Shown: positions 3 through 32,554 of the stretch, piece after piece
How positions within the stretch are numbered: the stretch's first letter is position 1
Layout: every line of letters starts with the position of its first letter
NCBI GenBank assembly: GCA_014860805.1
Contig: JACZJB010000068.1
Coordinates: 1 to 49,353, forward strand
From: Anaerolineales bacterium
GTDB taxonomy: Bacteria > Chloroflexota > Anaerolineae > Anaerolineales > Villigracilaceae
Length of the DNA: 49,353 nucleotides
Reading direction: 5' to 3'
Program-made: the position numbers and the translations under genes
Notes under the pieces: model-generated
What the model was told of the DNA's origin: nothing
Seen by the model: the letters and a program-made list of their open reading frames with translations, nothing else
The model's database searches: none

Positions 3-2300
3 TTCACCCTCCGCCCTTCCCAAACAGACATCCTCCGCTATCGCGGCGGCAAGCTTGGCATTTCGGCAGTGCCCGGGTCTGGAAAGACCTTCACCCTCTC
101 GGCGCTCGCCGCGCAGCTCATCACTAGCGGTGCAATTGCCACCGATCAGGACGTGCTCATCGTGACCCTCGTCAACTCGGCGGTGGATAATTTCTCGGCG
201 CGCATCGGCAAGATGATCGAGCAGCGTGGACTCATTCCGCACCTCGGTTATCGCGTGCGCACCCTGCACGGACTCGCGCATGACATTGTCCGCGAGAAAC
301 CTGCGCTGGCAGGGTTGGAAGAACGCTTTCAAATTGTGGATGAGCGCGAAGCGGAATTAATTCGCAAAGAAGCGGCGAATGCGTGGATTGCCTCATTCCC
401 AAATCATCTTGATGATTATTTCAGTTCAGATCTCGATCATTCAAAACGCGATTGGGTCAATCGCCAGCAAATGCCAGACCTCGCGCACAGTCTTGCGTTG
501 GCCTTCATTCGTTCCTGCAAAAATCTCACCGTCACGCCCGAAGACCTGCGCCAAAGATTAAACAATGCCCCCGCGCCGCTTCCTCTCGCGGAAATGGGCT
601 GGTGGATCTACGACAAATATCAGCAAGCCCTGCGCTATCGCGGCGCAGTGGACTTTGATGATCTGATCGCGTTCGCTTATAAAATTTTGCAATCCGATCC
701 CGAATATCTCGCGCGTCTGCAATATCGCTTCCCTTTCATTCTTGAAGATGAGGCGCAGGACTCGAGCGAAATTCAGGAAAATATTTTGCGTCTCTTGGCG
801 GGGCACGGCAATTGGGTGCGCGTCGGCGACCCCAACCAAGCCATCTTTGAAACCTTCACCACGGCAAATCCGAAACTGCTTAAAAATTTCATCGCCAGTG
901 AAGCGGATTATAAAAATGAATTGCCTGTCAGCGGGCGTTCGCAGCCGCACATCATTGAGCTGGCAAATTATCTAATTGACTGGACGAACGCCTCACACCC
1001 CGCCCGAGCCTGCCGCGACGCCTTGAGCATTCCCCACATCCAAGCGACATCTCCCGAAGACCCGCAGCCCAATCCGCCAGCGGACCCTGAAGCGATTCGC
1101 CTCATCAGCAAAAAATTCACGCCCGAAGAAGAGACCGAAGCCATCGTCAACTCGATCAAGAAGTGGCTGCCAGATCATCAGGATTCGACGGTAGCGGTTT
1201 TAGTCCCACGCAACACCCGCGGATTTGAAGTCATCGAAATGTTGAAGAAACATAAAATTGATTATGTGGACGTCCTCGCCAGCACGAACAAAACGCGAGT
1301 GGCTGCGGGTGCAATTGCCAATGTCATTGCGTATCTGTCCGACCCGACCTCCCCCACGAAGTTATCCCGAGCCTATCAAGTGTGGAGACGCGATTGGCGC
1401 GAAGACATGTCATTGCGAGACGGTGATCTTCCGTCGAAGCAATCTCCGTCAGAGAAAGAGATTGCTTCGGGACAAAGTGCGTCCCTCGCAATGACATCCA
1501 GTGAAAAGAAAGCGCTCCTCGCCATCACAGCAGAACTCTTGCGCAAGGTCGGCGAGGCGGAAACGTTCGTAGCGCCAAACCAGGATCATGACTGGCTGGC
1601 AACTCTCAGTGAGTCAGAGGCGGAAGAAGAAGTCATCCAGGAGTTGAGCCTGTTCAAAGTCGCGGTCAATCGCTGGTTGAATGCGGTCACACTTCCCATT
1701 GACCAATTGATCCTGACCCTCGCGCAGGAATTATTCACAGACGCAGCAGACCTCGCGCTGGCGCATAAACTTGCGCTGGTGCTTCGTCAGGCGGCGAATG
1801 ATCATACTGATTGGCGCTTACCTGAGTTGACCGCCGAACTGGGAGTCATCGCGCGCAACGAACGCCGCTTCATCGGTTTCTCGTCGGACGATTCGGGATT
1901 CAACCCTGAGGCATACAAAGGCAAAGTGGTGGTGACGACCATGCACAAAGCCAAGGGGCTGGAGTGGGACCGCGTGTACATGCTGAGCGTGAACAATTAT
2001 GATTTCCCATCGCTGCAACCGTATGACCGTTACATCTCGGAGAAGTGGTTCATCCGCAGCGGCCTCAACCTTGAAGCCGAGGCGCTTGCTCAACTAAAAG
2101 CCATCCTCTCCACTGGCGAATTTGACTGGTACGAAGAAGGCGCCGCCAGCCTCACCGCCCGCGAAGATTACTCCCGCGAACGCCTGCGGCTGTTATACGT
2201 GGGCATCACCCGCGCAAAAAAGGATTTGATCGTGACTTGGAATTCAGGCCGCAAAGGTGATGCGACACCGAATCTGGCTTTATCGGCTTTGATGGGATAA
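3..2300 (+). CDS. UvrD/PcrA-like superfamily 1 DNA helicase, 5' end outside window
   Basis: ATP-dependent 3'-5' DNA helicase of the UvrD/Rep family, acting in DNA repair or replication restart. The frame is open from the first bases of the window, so the true start lies upstream; the GTG at 69 is internal. A Q-like motif (LRPSQ) is followed by Walker A (PGSGKT, near nt 72-90). Motif II is DEAQD (nt 747-761), motif III GDPNQAIF, motif V TTMHKAKGLEWD and motif VI LLYVGITRAKKD near the C-terminus, so both RecA-like lobes are present. Oddities: about 30 in-frame residues (MSLRDGD..SLAMT) between the lobes are encoded by a 91-bp palindromic repeat, and the last residues (GRKGDATPN...) are duplicated about 0.93 kb downstream. 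The family assignment is firm; the exact ortholog is not. Confidence 0.93.
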   Translation, partial: FTLRPSQTDILRYRGGKLGISAVPGSGKTFTLSALAAQLITSGAIATDQDVLIVTLVNSAVDNFSARIGKMIEQRGLIPHLGYRVRTLHGLAHDIVREKPALAGLEERFQIVDEREAELIRKEAANAWIASFPNHLDDYFSSDLDHSKRDWVNRQQMPDLAHSLALAFIRSCKNLTVTPEDLRQRLNNAPAPLPLAEMGWWIYDKYQQALRYRGAVDFDDLIAFAYKILQSDPEYLARLQYRFPFILEDEAQDSSEIQENILRLLAGHGNWVRVGDPNQAIFETFTTANPKLLKNFIASEADYKNELPVSGRSQPHIIELANYLIDWTNASHPARACRDALSIPHIQATSPEDPQPNPPADPEAIRLISKKFTPEEETEAIVNSIKKWLPDHQDSTVAVLVPRNTRGFEVIEMLKKHKIDYVDVLASTNKTRVAAGAIANVIAYLSDPTSPTKLSRAYQVWRRDWREDMSLRDGDLPSKQSPSEKEIASGQSASLAMTSSEKKALLAITAELLRKVGEAETFVAPNQDHDWLATLSESEAEEEVIQELSLFKVAVNRWLNAVTLPIDQLILTLAQELFTDAADLALAHKLALVLRQAANDHTDWRLPELTAELGVIARNERRFIGFSSDDSGFNPEAYKGKVVVTTMHKAKGLEWDRVYMLSVNNYDFPSLQPYDRYISEKWFIRSGLNLEAEALAQLKAILSTGEFDWYEEGAASLTAREDYSRERLRLLYVGITRAKKDLIVTWNSGRKGDATPNLALSALMG
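1407..1497. repeat. Palindromic repeat element inserted in frame in the helicase gene
   Basis: Outer arms are a perfect 13-bp inverted repeat: ATGTCATTGCGAG (1407-1419) against CTCGCAATGACAT (1485-1497). Inner arms are a perfect 12-bp repeat: CGAAGCAATCTC (1435-1446) against GAGATTGCTTCG (1458-1469). The two arm pairs nest, so the segment can fold into one long hairpin. It lies inside the helicase frame without breaking it. It resembles short intergenic palindromes elsewhere in the window, for example 14994-15065. Confidence 0.88.
2232..2274 (+). repeat. Upstream copy of 43-bp direct repeat (helicase 3' end)
   Basis: Matches 3158-3200 with three mismatches over 43 bp. It encodes part of the helicase C-terminus (TWNSGRKGDATPN). 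The copies are 926 bp apart and bracket the inserted membrane-protein gene. Confidence 0.9.
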
Positions 2301-28554: not shown

Positions 28555-28740
28555 ATATGGCCCTTCTTTGTTCGTGATATTGCCTTCACGTTTTGAGCCA
28601 ATACCTACTAAAAGGGTCCTTAACTTAATTAGAAATAACGCGATAGGCCTGAGCCAAGGCGGCGTTTCTAGGTAGGGACCCACCTGCACATGCAGGTTCA
28701 AAACCTGGTGATACACGGCAAAAGCGGGGCCTTTTGTTTG
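28555..28740 (-). ncRNA. Candidate 6S-like RNA
   Basis: On the minus strand the text TTGCCGTGTATCACC, TTTTGAACCTGC and GCAGGTGGGTCCC resembles the 5' half of Firmicutes-type 6S RNA as I remember it. Ends about 180 nt apart can pair: GGCCC/GGGCC (28727-28731 with 28559-28563) and TTGCC/GGCAA (28717-28721 with 28580-28584), giving the long closing duplex and normal length of 6S RNA. No clear promoter is visible on this strand. A plus-strand structure is also possible (AAAAGGGTCC with GGGGCCTTTT). The assignment is uncertain. Confidence 0.4.
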
Positions 28741-28751
28741 TACTTTTCGGC

Positions 28752-28781
28752 TTGACAGAATCTCATGGCGGCATGTAAAAT
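28752..28781 (+). promoter_or_regulatory. Strong promoter with overlapping operator-like dyad
   Basis: Perfect -35 TTGACA (28752-28757), 18-bp spacer, -10 TAAAAT (28776-28781). A perfect 8-bp dyad ATGGCGGC (28765-28772)/GCCGCCAT (28783-28790) brackets the -10 and the expected start site, as a repressor operator would. Confidence 0.78.
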
Positions 28782-28787
28782 CGCCGC

Positions 28788-29194
28788 CATTGGTTAGTCA
28801 CAATTAAATAACGGAGATACAAGCGGCTGGGTCTTGCGCAGCAAGATCACGAGGTGGAGGTTCTCCCGTGCGAACGGGACGCTAATTACCAAGCTCCCCT
28901 CTCTTTCGGAGAGGGTCGAGGCGAGGTGAGAAAATCGGATAGATCAGCGGATGCCTCTGAAGCCAGGTCACTGGCTTCCTTCTCCCTTCCAAAGAAAGCG
29001 GAATTGAGCAAAGGAGTTTAAAAAAACTCTATTGCTCGCCACCGAAAACCACGCGGCGACGTGTGGGACAAGGCGGACGCGGTGAACAAGAGAATTGATC
29101 AAGTTCGGTCAATTGCCTTGAGGAGTTGGAAGGGCGTTTCTTTTTAATACCAGCATGTATTAAAACAGGTGTGCCCGGGCATGCCTGTTTTTTT
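28788..29194 (+). ncRNA. Structured non-coding RNA of about 400 nt, family not recognised
   Basis: There is no usable open frame between a strong promoter and an intrinsic terminator. Predicted helices in order: TCTTGC/GCAAGA (28832-28846), TCCCGT/ACGGGA closed by a GCGA tetraloop (28864-28879), CCCTCTC/GAGAGGG (28897-28915), GAAGCCAG/CTGGCTTC (28959-28978), GAGCAA..GAGTTT/AAACTC..TTGCTC (29006-29037), CCACGC/GTGTGG (29049-29066) and AATTGATC/GGTCAATT (29093-29114). A 9-bp long-range helix pairs CCCTTCCAA (28984-28992) with TTGGAAGGG (29126-29134). It lacks the signature segments of RNase P RNA, tmRNA and SRP RNA. The function is unknown. Confidence 0.75.
29162..29194 (+). terminator. Terminator of the ~400-nt RNA
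   Basis: AAAACAGG (29162-29169) pairs with CCTGTTTT (29184-29191), with an inner TGCCC/GGGCA stem and a following T run. Confidence 0.85.
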
Positions 29195-29345
29195 ATGCAA
29201 CCCACGAACCTGACGAGACGGATGAAAAAGGGCTAAAATGCTTTGAACAATCCGCCAACCTCAAGGCAGTTGGAAATGAGCAAGAATCGGGTCGCCCCAA
29301 CGCAAGTCTCCAAATACAATCTCAAACATCAAAAAGGAGATTGAT

Positions 29346-30191
29346 ATGGACAATACAATTGAACCTTCACAGCATTACAAATTGATCGAGCAAGCCATTC
29401 AGTTCATCGAGGCAAATGTGCAGCGTCAGCCTGAACTGGAAGAAATCGCCTCTGCTGTCGGACTGAGCGAGTATCATTTCCAGCGCTTGTTCACTCACTG
29501 GACGGGCATCAGTCCCAAACGCTTCATGCAATTTCTTACAAAAGAACATGCCAAGCGTTTGCTCAGCCAGTCTGAGAACTTGCTGGAGACCACGCACAAG
29601 ATCGGGCTTTCCAGCCTCGGGCGCCTGCATGATCTCTTCGTAAACACCGAAGCGGTTACGCCGGGTGAATACAAAACCGGCGGGGCGGGTCTCACCATCC
29701 GCTACGGAATTCATCCGTCTCCGTTTGGAAAGTGCCTTATTGCAACCACCGAGCGCGGCATTTGCAATCTCAGTTTCGTGGATGCAAGCGAAGGGAAAGT
29801 GATTGACAGCCTTGTCGCAGATTGGCAGCAGGCAGAGATGATCGAAGATTACAAGTCCACTGCCCCGCTGGTCACACGCATCTTTTCGGAACTGGGAACT
29901 GGTACGCCTCTCAAGGTTCATCTTCGCGGGACCAATTTCCAGATCAAAGTTTGGGAAGCGCTGCTCAGCATTCCATCAGGAGCAGTTACCACTTACGAAC
30001 ACCTCGCAGCGGAGATCGGCAATCCCAAAGCGGTGCGCGCCGTCGGCTCGGCAGTTGGACACAACCCAATCGCGTATTTGATCCCATGCCATCGTGTGAT
30101 CCGCAAAAATGGCGATTTTGGAAATTATTTGTATGGCTCGGCCCGAAAGAAAGTGATCCTCGCAAGAGAATTCAGTGCAAGCCAGGCATGA
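29346..30191 (+). CDS. AraC-type HTH fused to O6-alkylguanine-DNA alkyltransferase (Ada-like, no Ada zinc domain)
   Basis: 281 aa. An AraC/XylS double helix-turn-helix fills residues 12-105 (PELEEIASAVGLSEYHFQRLF, with the tail of the motif RFMQFLTKEHAKRLL). An Ogt/MGMT methyltransferase follows from about 115 to 278, with active-site Cys in IPCHRVIRKNG and the downstream NYLYG. It removes O6-alkyl groups from guanine onto the Cys and may regulate alkylation-response genes. The Cys-rich N-terminal Ada domain of E. coli Ada is absent, a common arrangement. AAAAAGGAG precedes the ATG. The EamA exporter follows 24 bp downstream, so the two may be cotranscribed. Confidence 0.92.
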   Translation: MDNTIEPSQHYKLIEQAIQFIEANVQRQPELEEIASAVGLSEYHFQRLFTHWTGISPKRFMQFLTKEHAKRLLSQSENLLETTHKIGLSSLGRLHDLFVNTEAVTPGEYKTGGAGLTIRYGIHPSPFGKCLIATTERGICNLSFVDASEGKVIDSLVADWQQAEMIEDYKSTAPLVTRIFSELGTGTPLKVHLRGTNFQIKVWEALLSIPSGAVTTYEHLAAEIGNPKAVRAVGSAVGHNPIAYLIPCHRVIRKNGDFGNYLYGSARKKVILAREFSASQA

Positions 30192-30215: not shown

Positions 30216-31145
30216 ATGAAAACAAAAATCTGGATAGCTTTAATAGCCTTATATATCGTCTGGGGTTCTACTTATCTGGGAATCAAAATTGCAATTGAGA
30301 CCATTCCACCGTTCCTTCAGGCAGGGATACGCTTTATGATTTCCGGTGCAATCCTTATTATTTGGCAACGTTCCATAGGACAGCCAATGCCTACGCGCAA
30401 GCAATGGATTTCTGCATCCATTGTCGGCACCCTGCTTCTGCTTGGCGGCAATGGACTTGTCTCCTGGGCAGAGCAGTTCATCCCCTCAGGGATCGCTGCA
30501 CTCATTATTGGATCTGTCCCGATGTTTTTGGTGATTGCAGAGGGTATTCGTCCAGGCGGCGTAAAACCAACATGGCAGGCCATTGTCGGTATCGTGATTG
30601 GGTTTATTGGAATTTACGTACTTGTAGGTCCGTCAAAAAACGATGACGGTATGGTCCTTAACACATTCGGTGTAATCGCATTGCTCTCTGCCTGCTTATT
30701 TTGGACACTGGGATCGATATACAGCAAAACGGCTGACCTCCCAAAATCCATTTTAATGTCCACGGGGGCGCAGATGTTAATGGGCAGCCTCGGTGGATTC
30801 GTCATTGCAGGGGTTACCGGTGAAATAAGCAATTGGGATATTGCGTCGGTTTCCCTTCGCTCCATCTATGGGCTTTCATATTTGATCCTTATCGGTTCTT
30901 TGATCGGGTTCGTTTCTTACGGCTGGTTGTTGCAAAATGCGCCGATCTCACTCGTGGCAACCTATGCGTATGTCAATCCCATTGTGGCGGTTCTTCTCGG
31001 CAGCTGGCTTGGTAATGAGCCGCTGGAGCCGCGCATCTGGCTGGCAGCAGCGATCATTGTCGGGTCGGTCATGTTCATTAATAGCAGGAGCAAGCCCCAG
31101 GTTAAGAAAGAAGCGCAGCAAGATGCGTTGAAAAGCAGTCATTGA
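30216..31145 (+). CDS. EamA/DMT-family transporter (YedA-like)
   Basis: 309 aa with ten hydrophobic helices in two five-helix EamA halves. It opens WIALIALYIVWGSTYLGIKI, a signature of this family, and ends with the second repeat (LIGFVSYGWLLQNAPISLV, followed by AYVNPIVAVLLGSWLG). It is likely an inner-membrane exporter of amino acids or other small metabolites; the substrate is unknown. AAAAAGGAAAAA precedes the ATG. It follows the Ada-like gene closely and precedes glnA by 68 bp, on the same strand. Confidence 0.92.
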   Translation: MKTKIWIALIALYIVWGSTYLGIKIAIETIPPFLQAGIRFMISGAILIIWQRSIGQPMPTRKQWISASIVGTLLLLGGNGLVSWAEQFIPSGIAALIIGSVPMFLVIAEGIRPGGVKPTWQAIVGIVIGFIGIYVLVGPSKNDDGMVLNTFGVIALLSACLFWTLGSIYSKTADLPKSILMSTGAQMLMGSLGGFVIAGVTGEISNWDIASVSLRSIYGLSYLILIGSLIGFVSYGWLLQNAPISLVATYAYVNPIVAVLLGSWLGNEPLEPRIWLAAAIIVGSVMFINSRSKPQVKKEAQQDALKSSH

Positions 31146-31213: not shown

Positions 31214-32554
31214 ATGGACGGAAAAGATTTGCTTAAGAAAGTCAAGGAAGATAATGTCAAATTCATGTCGCTTCAATTCACCGATGTGATGGGCGCGGTA
31301 AAGAGTGTGGATATGCCGATCCGCCACCTTGAAGATGTTTTGAAGGATGGCGCGTGGTTCGATGGCTCATCTGTGGAAGGGTTTGCCCGCATTCAGGAAA
31401 GTGATATGCGCCTGAAAATCGACCCTGAAACCTATGCCGTGCTTCCGTGGTCTGCGCCGGATTCAAAGCGCGCACGCGTGTTCTGCGATATTTTCACACC
31501 TGCCGGCGATCCCTTCGACGGCGACCCGCGCGGCGCCTTGAAGCGCATCCTCAAGAAAATTGCCGCCCGCGGCTGGATGCTCAATATTGGGCCTGAGCCT
31601 GAATTCTTCTTGTTTAAGGCTGCCAACGGACATGGTGTTCACCCCGTCCCCCACGATACGGGCGGTTACTTTGATTTTTCGTCCTTTGATGAAGCCGTGG
31701 TCGTCCGCACTGCATTGATGGACGCGCTGGACGCAATGGGATTGGATGTGGAAGTGGGACATCATGAAGTTGCGCTCGGCCAGCATGAAATTGACTTCCG
31801 CTTTGCAGATGCGCTTAAGGCTGCGGATAATGTCCTGACCTTGAAGTACACCGTAAAAGCGATTGCCGCCCAAAACGGGCTGACCGCCTCTTTCATGCCG
31901 AAGCCTGTGTACGGCATCAACGGCTCTGGCATGCACTGTCACCAATCCCTCTTCGACATCAAGACAGGCACCAATCTTTTCTTTGACGCAAAGGATGAGG
32001 CTCATCTTTCACCTTTGGCTTATTCCTTCATTGCCGGGCAACTGGAGCATGCCCGTGCGCTCGCCGGCGTAGTAGCCCCAACCGTGAACTCATACAAGCG
32101 TTTGGTTCCCGGGTACGAAGCACCCGTGTACATCGGTTGGGCTCAACAGAATCGCTCGGCACTGATCCGTATTCCGCGCTACACCGAAGGACGCGACAAG
32201 GCTGTCCGCGCCGAACTGCGCTTCCCTGACCCGTCCTCGAACCCATACTTGGCTTTCACAGTGATGCTTGCCGCTGCCCTCGATGGCATTGACAAGAATA
32301 TGAAGGCTCCAAAGGCGTTGAACAACATCAATCTCTATCACCTGAACAAGGAAGAACGCACCAAGTTGGGAGTGACCGAACTGCCCGGCTCATTGGCTGA
32401 ATCTCTGAGTGAATTGGAAAAGAACGAAGTGTTAAAATCTGCTCTCGGCGATTACCTCTTTGAGGCGTACCTGCGCGCGAAATGGGAAGAGTGGGATGAG
32501 TTCCGCCTGCGTGTGACCGATTACGAGATCGAAAAGTATTTGGAAACCGCCTAA
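31214..32554 (+). CDS. glnA: Glutamine synthetase, type I (alpha subtype likely)
   Basis: 446 aa. It makes glutamine from glutamate, ammonia and ATP as a cytoplasmic dodecamer. Landmarks: FTDVMGAVKSVDMPI near the N-terminus, WFDGSSVEGFARIQESDM, the ATP/metal site NIGPEPEFFLF, KPVYGINGSGMHCHQSLF and RIPRYTEGRDKAVRAELR. The length (about 445) and lack of the adenylylation 'NLYDLPPEE' tyrosine box (NINLYHLNKEERTKLG instead) point to the GSI-alpha class, regulated by feedback or protein binding rather than adenylylation. GGAG is 9 bases from the ATG. It is followed by a strong terminator. Confidence 0.96.
   Translation: MDGKDLLKKVKEDNVKFMSLQFTDVMGAVKSVDMPIRHLEDVLKDGAWFDGSSVEGFARIQESDMRLKIDPETYAVLPWSAPDSKRARVFCDIFTPAGDPFDGDPRGALKRILKKIAARGWMLNIGPEPEFFLFKAANGHGVHPVPHDTGGYFDFSSFDEAVVVRTALMDALDAMGLDVEVGHHEVALGQHEIDFRFADALKAADNVLTLKYTVKAIAAQNGLTASFMPKPVYGINGSGMHCHQSLFDIKTGTNLFFDAKDEAHLSPLAYSFIAGQLEHARALAGVVAPTVNSYKRLVPGYEAPVYIGWAQQNRSALIRIPRYTEGRDKAVRAELRFPDPSSNPYLAFTVMLAAALDGIDKNMKAPKALNNINLYHLNKEERTKLGVTELPGSLAESLSELEKNEVLKSALGDYLFEAYLRAKWEEWDEFRLRVTDYEIEKYLETA

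Follow-up and report, generated by a model that had tools for sequence, protein, structure and literature searches.

The window, a stretch of 49,353 nucleotides of contig JACZJB010000068.1 from an Anaerolineales bacterium, contains a structured RNA at 28752–29194 of the forward strand. It is located just downstream of a 6S RNA (28557–28734, 79.9 bits), which is the only Rfam match at gathering level in the window. The borders of the RNA and the genes behind it are the following.

28752–28757 and 28776–28781, + strand: promoter, TTGACA and TAAAAT with an 18-nt spacer (11 of 12 consensus matches; a like pattern is present in homologues)
29165–29174/29179–29188, + strand: intrinsic terminator, U tract to 29194 (two-sided changes at 6 of its 10 pairs)
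29346–30191, + strand: ada-like gene (AraC HTH and O6-methylguanine methyltransferase; Pfam PF12833, PF01035), first gene downstream
30216–31145, + strand: EamA-family transporter gene (Pfam PF00892)
31214–32554, + strand: glnA, glutamine synthetase, the conserved downstream target (Pfam PF00120, PF03951; linkage)

The original prediction described a well delimited RNA of unrecognised family. Its first part stands, as the RNA is real, conserved and structured with its own promoter and terminator, but the family can be recognised as the glmS class. The claimed TTGACA and TAAAAT boxes are present at 28752–28781. The motif alone is not significant (two promoter-like sites in the 1-kb region versus 1.3 ± 1.1 in shuffles). 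A TTGAC[AG]-17..19-TA...T pattern, searched as a regular expression without chance control, lies within 130 nt 5′ of the predicted cleavage site in 43 of the 62 one-per-species homologues with enough upstream DNA. Also borne out are the lack of an open frame (zero frames of at least 60 aa overlap the RNA on either strand), the stable fold (−156.5 kcal/mol for 28786–29194, z = −4.95, 0 of 100 shuffles as good), the 9-bp long-range helix between 28984–28992 and 29126–29134, the GCGA loop at 29056–29059 and the terminator stem with its U tract at 29188–29194. The terminator is not reported by a terminator scanner, yet its stem is paired in 98.1% of the cells of a 37-sequence alignment. Within its own genome the RNA region gives one match at E ≤ 0.001.

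RNase P, tmRNA, SRP and 6S RNA are ruled out for 28752–29194, none of them being matched by Rfam, whether at the gathering threshold or at E ≤ 10, in agreement with the failure of the earlier search to find signatures of the first three. ARAGORN found no tRNA or tmRNA within the window. An Rfam scan had been suggested. Using 601 bases and a relaxed threshold, the best match is the glmS ribozyme (RF00234), with 28811–29091 aligned to the full model (1–167) at 20.5 bits (E = 0.013), which is below the gathering cut-off of 37 bits. This alignment holds two large insertions of 81 and 70 bases. The other relaxed matches, HOXB13-AS1_1 (E = 1.8) and Atu_C9 (E = 7.9), are at chance level. Three glnA-linked relatives (L090, 47.7 bits; L091, 46.6 bits; L092, 42.9 bits) score above the cut-off; they belong to family f13 and not to the family of the window. 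L089 stays below it with 35.0 bits. At the gathering cut-off glmS was called in only one (L090) of 20 loci scanned. At E ≤ 0.01 it was matched in six of ten loci and not in L036, L068, L081 and L105, the window copy being among these four.

Using blastn, matches at E ≤ 1 were obtained in 54 of 61 genomes of the genus and order, and matches of 1e-35 or better in 26 genomes including that of the window, all within the genus. As had been suggested, a covariance model was built, using 27 homologues. It gives matches in 57 of the 61 relatives, and the matching loci fall into two score groups (35 loci with at least 96 bits and the rest with at most 80.2 bits). Within the class 200 of 396 genomes match, and among the matches listed scores of at least 100 are restricted to Anaerolineales. 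The alignment behind the model contains 27 of the 35 extracted homologues. A near duplicate (L037), a copy cut by its contig (L047), one with a large insert (L069) and five with long P1 inserts (L041, L050, L053, L057 and L060) were left out, and L071 is also absent.

All elements of the glmS ribozyme that were sought are present and conserved, with the bulge of P2.2 shifted:

28822/28823, + strand: predicted cleavage site between A(−1) and G(1) (A-G-C-G invariant in 27 of 27 homologues)
28824, 28825, 28827, 28828, 28829 with 28949, 28948, 28947, 28946, 28945, + strand: P2.2, G28826 bulged (99.3% of cells paired)
28830–28837/28841–28848, + strand: P1 (92.8% of cells paired, two-sided changes at 7 of its 8 pairs)
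28850–28852/28935–28937, + strand: P2.1, ligand-pocket helix (97.5% of cells paired, 0 changed on both sides)
28857–28860/28954–28957, + strand: P2, enclosing the inserted hairpins P2a and P2b (100% of cells paired)
28864–28868/28875–28879, + strand: P2a (two-sided changes at all 5 pairs)
28886–28890/28925–28929, + strand: P2b (two-sided changes at all 5 pairs)
28959–28966/28971–28978, + strand: P3 (97.3% of cells paired, two-sided changes at 6 of its 8 pairs)
28968–28971 (UCAC) with 29082–29085 (GUGA), + strand: P3.1 pseudoknot (99.3% of cells paired)
29039–29043/29072–29076, + strand: P4 lower stem (two-sided changes at all 5 pairs, only 79.1% of cells paired)
29044–29048/29067–29071, + strand: P4 A-rich internal loop (AAAA and ACAA conserved)
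29049–29055/29060–29066, + strand: P4 upper stem (90.3% of cells paired, 7 of 7 pairs changed on both sides)
29056–29059, + strand: P4 tetraloop L4, GCGA (GNRA in 37 of 37)

In the 27-sequence alignment, 43 pairs in eight helices including both core pseudoknots are paired in 96.5% of the cells, and 26 pairs are changed on both sides. Covariation, uncorrected for relatedness, is 0.375 compared with 0.155 in shuffled alignments (none of 500 reaching this value) and does not exceed 0.124 in slid controls. For the 3′ half an alignment of 37 sequences gives 94.6% of cells paired, 24 pairs changed on both sides and a covariation of 0.371 versus 0.168 shuffled, again uncorrected for relatedness; the lower P4 stem is its weakest helix. 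These 37 rows come from 44 stretches, from which near duplicates (L037, L078, L084), copies of odd length or layout (L068, L069, L070) and L089, where GGAAGG lies inside glnA, were removed. Absent from the 44 are L040 (UGAAGGG), L087 and L090–L092 (strand lacking), and L047 and L056 (cut or with N runs). In P3.1 a U-A pair is replaced by C-G in five rows and by G-C in one.

A(−1), G1, C2, G3, U6, G7, ACGAGG and CAGCGG are invariant in the 27 homologues and AAUCG is nearly so. Invariance in all 27 extends to the C2–G56 and G3–C55 pairs as well as to the cleavage dinucleotide. G28853, the G that follows CGA, is presumably the general base. P2.2 and P2.1 hardly vary, and covariation is therefore no test of either helix. 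The P2.2 strand reads GCGGCUG in 22 rows, GCGACUG in four and GCGUAUG in one. It faces CAGCG, so that the purine at position 4 must bulge, two places away from the bulge at position 6 of the model ribozyme. The passages of PMC7125110 from which our cleavage-site numbering is taken describe that the presence of a bulge in P2.2 matters, that single P2.2 mutants lose much activity and that inward-shifted bulges are inferred to rescue mutants. The A residues of the internal loop and the L4 tetraloop, described as sensitive in Bacillus subtilis in an excerpt of PMC11602151, are retained in these RNAs; L4 is GCGA in 14 rows, GCAA in ten, GUGA in nine and GUAA in four. Its sequence and conserved pairing place this RNA in the glmS ribozyme class.

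The gene that accompanies these RNAs is glnA. Using tblastn, a same-strand downstream glnA is found directly behind the RNA in families f5, f6, f7, f8, f12 and f13 and in one f1 genome, and the remaining f1 loci with enough flank have the order ada–eamA–glnA. The glnA synteny thus spans seven families of Anaerolineales. Among 50 glnA-type loci (35 from relatives and 15 from the class), glnA is seen in 43, ada or eamA with a short flank in five, and the remaining two are one cut by its contig (G030) and one before a MOSC gene (G043:C53). A 25-letter pattern, applied to one genome per species, finds 69 loci, all in Chloroflexota/Anaerolineae; this includes Aquidulcis, which we take to be placed there. 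With at least 2.3 kb downstream (50 pattern loci, a set that overlaps with and is not independent of the 50 loci above), glnA is found in 47, ada–eamA only in two (L154 and L203, the latter near its sequence end) and none of these in L198. None of the 69 pattern loci has glmS downstream. Where the RNA stands immediately before glnA, the distance from terminator to ATG is about 30 nt (L066, L067, L073), and in the family of the window two genes lie between the RNA and glnA.

Some loci deserve separate mention. The copy in G043 before the MOSC-domain gene (L072:1144–1620) is a second glnA-type copy in that genome and has a terminator. L198 is likewise a glnA-type locus with a terminator, and its downstream gene is not glnA, ada, eamA or glmS. 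In the 150-nt gap before ada, a conserved GAGCAAGAAWCGGGTCG ... ATACAATCTC ... GGAGATTGATATG element (29270–29346) is seen by eye in many homologues of the genus. It could be a promoter, an operator or a short leader frame.

Many of the same genomes carry separate glmS-type ribozymes before glmS. In the window genome (G000) no glmS-linked ribozyme was found, its glmS-family matches being partial pieces on several contigs. Of 22 lower-scoring class loci, mostly the best-scoring (L093–L114), 19 lie before glmS and three before a gene with a glutamate-synthase domain. Ribozymes linked to glmS in this order and class (L003, L005 and L028, for example) have in common with the glnA-linked RNAs the overall plan, P2a/P2b, GAAAAUCGA, a GAUCAGCGG-like strand and a helix P0 described below. 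They differ in their downstream gene and in sequence type: GCGRCUG goes with glnA in 26 of 27 rows, whereas 26 of 29 complete copies of the glmS set have GCGCAUG. The base before ACGAGG is C, U, A or G in the glnA type and G in all 29 readable copies of the glmS set. L096 and L114 were considered as GCGACAG variants before glmS and rejected, as L096 has GCGCAUG a few bases on and L114, with the same strings, was taken alike.

Glutamate-synthase-domain genes follow glmS-type ribozymes at four loci: L105 (family f1), L111, L094 and L069 (family f9). Two of them, L094 and L111, score above the Rfam glmS cut-off, and L069 just fails it (35.4 bits). For L105 Rfam gives no match at E ≤ 0.01, and this locus rests on the covariance model of 27 homologues (80.9 bits). 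In the downstream protein of L094 the glutamate synthase domain is partial and is joined to FAD-oxidase and 4Fe-4S parts in one fusion, and the domain match downstream of L069 is weak (25.5 bits).

Outside the catalytic core, the RNA contains a leader and an apparent expression platform, which are built from these parts together with the terminator:

28788–28822, + strand: 5′ leader, released on predicted cleavage (sequence; a conserved leader among homologues)
28813–28817 (GGAGA) with 28981–28985 (UCUCC), + strand: P0 (95.6% of cells paired, two-sided changes at 2 of its 5 pairs)
28984–28990 (CCCUUCC) with 29128–29134 (GGAAGGG), + strand: long-range helix (7 core pairs, 98.8% of cells paired, almost invariant in 37 sequences)
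29132–29137 (GGGCGU) with 29171–29176 (GUGCCC), + strand: closing helix of the antiterminator hairpin (GGGC:GCCC in 37 of 37)

The start of the leader near 28788 is placed from the −10 box. P0 pairs the leader with the stretch after P3, and compensatory variants are found in glmS-type copies of the same group: GGGAAAGA:UCUUUCCC in L005, GGAGGGA:UCCCUCC in L028 and GGGCAA:UUGCCC in L105. Own P0 pairs have a mean energy of −9.77 kcal/mol versus −8.23 kcal/mol for crossed pairs, and in 107 of 136 cases the own pair beats the median; these totals are rough, as the glnA type here comprises everything except GCGCAUG, GCGCCUG and GCGCAAG, and the set includes a wrong L089 site and overlapping loci. 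It is the glmS-type set (−12.4) that accounts for this strength, the glnA-type mean of −8.2 being no better than the average crossed pair. On the 5′ side of P0, an ACAAYTGAATA-like stretch (28801–28812) is conserved in most homologues seen, with no pairing partner seen by eye.

The long-range helix and P0 have 28984–28985 in common. No two-sided change is seen in the long-range helix within the 37 rows. Outside them, UGAAGGG of L040 pairs with CCCUUCA, a two-sided change that favours this helix. The GGAAGGG-type strand is present in 63 of 65 assessable one-per-species glnA-type loci, compared with one of 28 glmS leaders (L010) having GGAAGG or GAAGGG between P3 and glmS. A hairpin of at least 7 bp with a T-rich tail, a simple rule, is found in 56 of the 65.

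The antiterminator is nearly invariant in its GGGC:GCCC part, the outer pair being G-C in 34 rows, G-U in two and A-U in one. In L198, outside these rows, GGGU faces ACCC and the fourth pair is changed on both sides. Of the two terminator-loop C residues required by the antiterminator, one is C in all 37 rows and the other in 34 (U in three), though both are unpaired in the terminator. With the pairing enforced, a coherent hairpin forms in all 37 sequences and is stabler than the mean of its spacer shuffles in all 37 (p ≤ 0.05 in 24, mean z −2.27; the shuffles preserve single-base content only and the sequences are related). It is less stable than the free fold by 0.3–11.2 kcal/mol (mean 4.5) and would thus have to work kinetically. 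Comparison and folding energy together point to a mutually exclusive terminator and antiterminator with one strand in common with the aptamer side. Most glnA-linked copies have this arrangement, in which the antiterminator strand also pairs with the 3′ edge of the ribozyme. In five f13 loci (L087, L089–L092) the ribozyme lies before glnA and the platform is not seen.

Compared with RF00234 of Bacillus and others, the RNA has the same A/GCG site, P1, P2, P2.1, a P2.2 with one bulge, P3, P3.1 and a P4 with A-rich internal loop and GNRA loop. It differs by the shifted bulge, the inserted P2a/P2b, P0, the downstream glnA instead of glmS and the terminator/antiterminator platform, whereas the mode of action described for known glmS ribozymes is cleavage and decay. 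Cleavage and decay in the glmS leader are found in passages of PMC10907184 and PMC11476745, and cleavage in part of PMC2258182. In an excerpt of PMC10907184, a 2024 review, glmS is classed as a ribozyme and not a riboswitch, since it acts by cutting its own message. The part of PMC13273304 (June 2026) consulted states that glmS uniquely uses cleavage; there, glmS variants with an expression platform were sought, no covarying overlap with terminators was found and such a platform was judged not commonly used. No report of a glmS ribozyme before glnA or glutamate synthase is among the matches listed in a search of titles and abstract starts, and an earlier mention is possible. What appear to be new relative to known glmS ribozymes are the target, glnA, and the terminator/antiterminator output.

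Two other RNAs are related by theme. The glnA RNA (RF01739) controls nitrogen genes such as glnA, has a fold that differs from the glmS type and is absent from the three matches that Rfam gives for the RNA studied here at E ≤ 10. GlmY and GlmZ of enterobacteria have no ribozyme, act in trans and have a different sequence. Their response to GlcN6P, the likeness to the input proposed here, is taken from a passage of PMC7073468, and the name glutamine riboswitch and the ligand of RF01739 from one of PMC3766115.

We consider it likely that the RNA is a glmS-class ribozyme-riboswitch serving as the leader of a glnA transcription unit in Anaerolineales. The ligand, cleavage, direction of control and P0 coupling that follow are what we infer from the comparison. 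GlcN6P would bind and trigger cleavage between A28822 and G28823. At high GlcN6P the folded (and cleaved) ribozyme would hold GGAAGGG (29128–29134) on its own 3′ edge CCCUUCC (28984–28990), no antiterminator would form, the terminator would stop transcription and glnA would be lowered. At low GlcN6P, GGGC (29132–29135) would pair with GCCC of the terminator, allowing read-through to ada–eamA–glnA or straight to glnA. Leader GGAGA and GGAAGGG may compete for C28984–C28985, and loss of the leader by cleavage would then lengthen the terminating helix. The five f13 copies would act through cleavage and mRNA decay like ordinary glmS ribozymes. GlmS consumes glutamine and makes GlcN6P. GlcN6P is named as a classical feedback inhibitor of enterobacterial glutamine synthetase in an excerpt of PMC6316151, with which an RNA that lowers glnA at high GlcN6P fits.

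The full scheme is a tentative proposal, to which we give somewhat less than even weight: this would be the first glmS-type ribozyme that controls transcription, where cleavage triggered by GlcN6P removes the 5′ strand of P0, the neighbouring strand zips onto the ribozyme edge, the antiterminator is blocked and glnA transcription stops. Ribozymes of the glmS class have so far been treated as a one-gene system that cuts its own message. Here a conserved variant with an overlap of the kind sought in the 2026 survey is found on a different and central enzyme. If the scheme is true, an RNA links cell-wall sugar supply to glutamine synthesis, and the copies that precede glutamate synthase would join it in a GlcN6P regulon governing ammonia assimilation. 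Whether ribozyme catalysis can drive transcription control is made directly testable.

The own promoter and strong terminator, together with the two genes and the 150-nt gap before glnA in the family of the window, would also suit a regulatory RNA derived from the glmS ribozyme of which the terminated product of about 400 nt acts in trans in the manner of GlmY/GlmZ, read-through being incidental. This is unlikely given that in several families the terminator is followed immediately by glnA, that the linkage is kept after gene insertion and also where no terminator is seen, and that the antiterminator is conserved, which a pure trans RNA does not need. The stand-alone reading was dropped on account of the distant homologues directly before glnA, and the RNA is best seen as the leader of the glnA transcription unit.

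The shifted P2.2 bulge, the variable base before ACGAGG and a target that makes glutamine raise the question of whether the fold was kept and the ligand changed (for example to glutamine) or cleavage lost, giving a glmS-derived riboswitch for another metabolite. With A(−1), G1, C2, G3, G7, ACGAGG and CAGCGG invariant, AAUCG nearly so and the glnA-linked L090–L092 above the glmS cut-off, we regard this as improbable. The low Rfam score of the window copy would be expected of a decaying relic that lies near glnA by chance, an explanation made very improbable by the strong covariation, the conserved core and the synteny in seven families of the order. The glmS-class leader of glnA is thus the reading we retain.

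Rfam places a 6S RNA upstream in five of 20 other loci scanned. A 6S 3′-end motif, searched as a regular expression without chance control, is found upstream of the ribozyme in 42 of 62 one-per-species homologues. In nine homologues its end lies 40–55 nt 5′ of the cleavage site and the interval lacks a promoter pattern, and in these 6S and the glnA leader may be on one transcript. If the proposed scheme is true, cleavage would free 6S from the glnA message where the RNA directly follows it. T-box-like leaders lie near L089 (5155–5373, 68.8 bits) and L105 (5820–6063, 81.5 bits), the cut-off being 93. In the G057 copy (L069:1678–1941) the P2 insertion contains a large additional segment.
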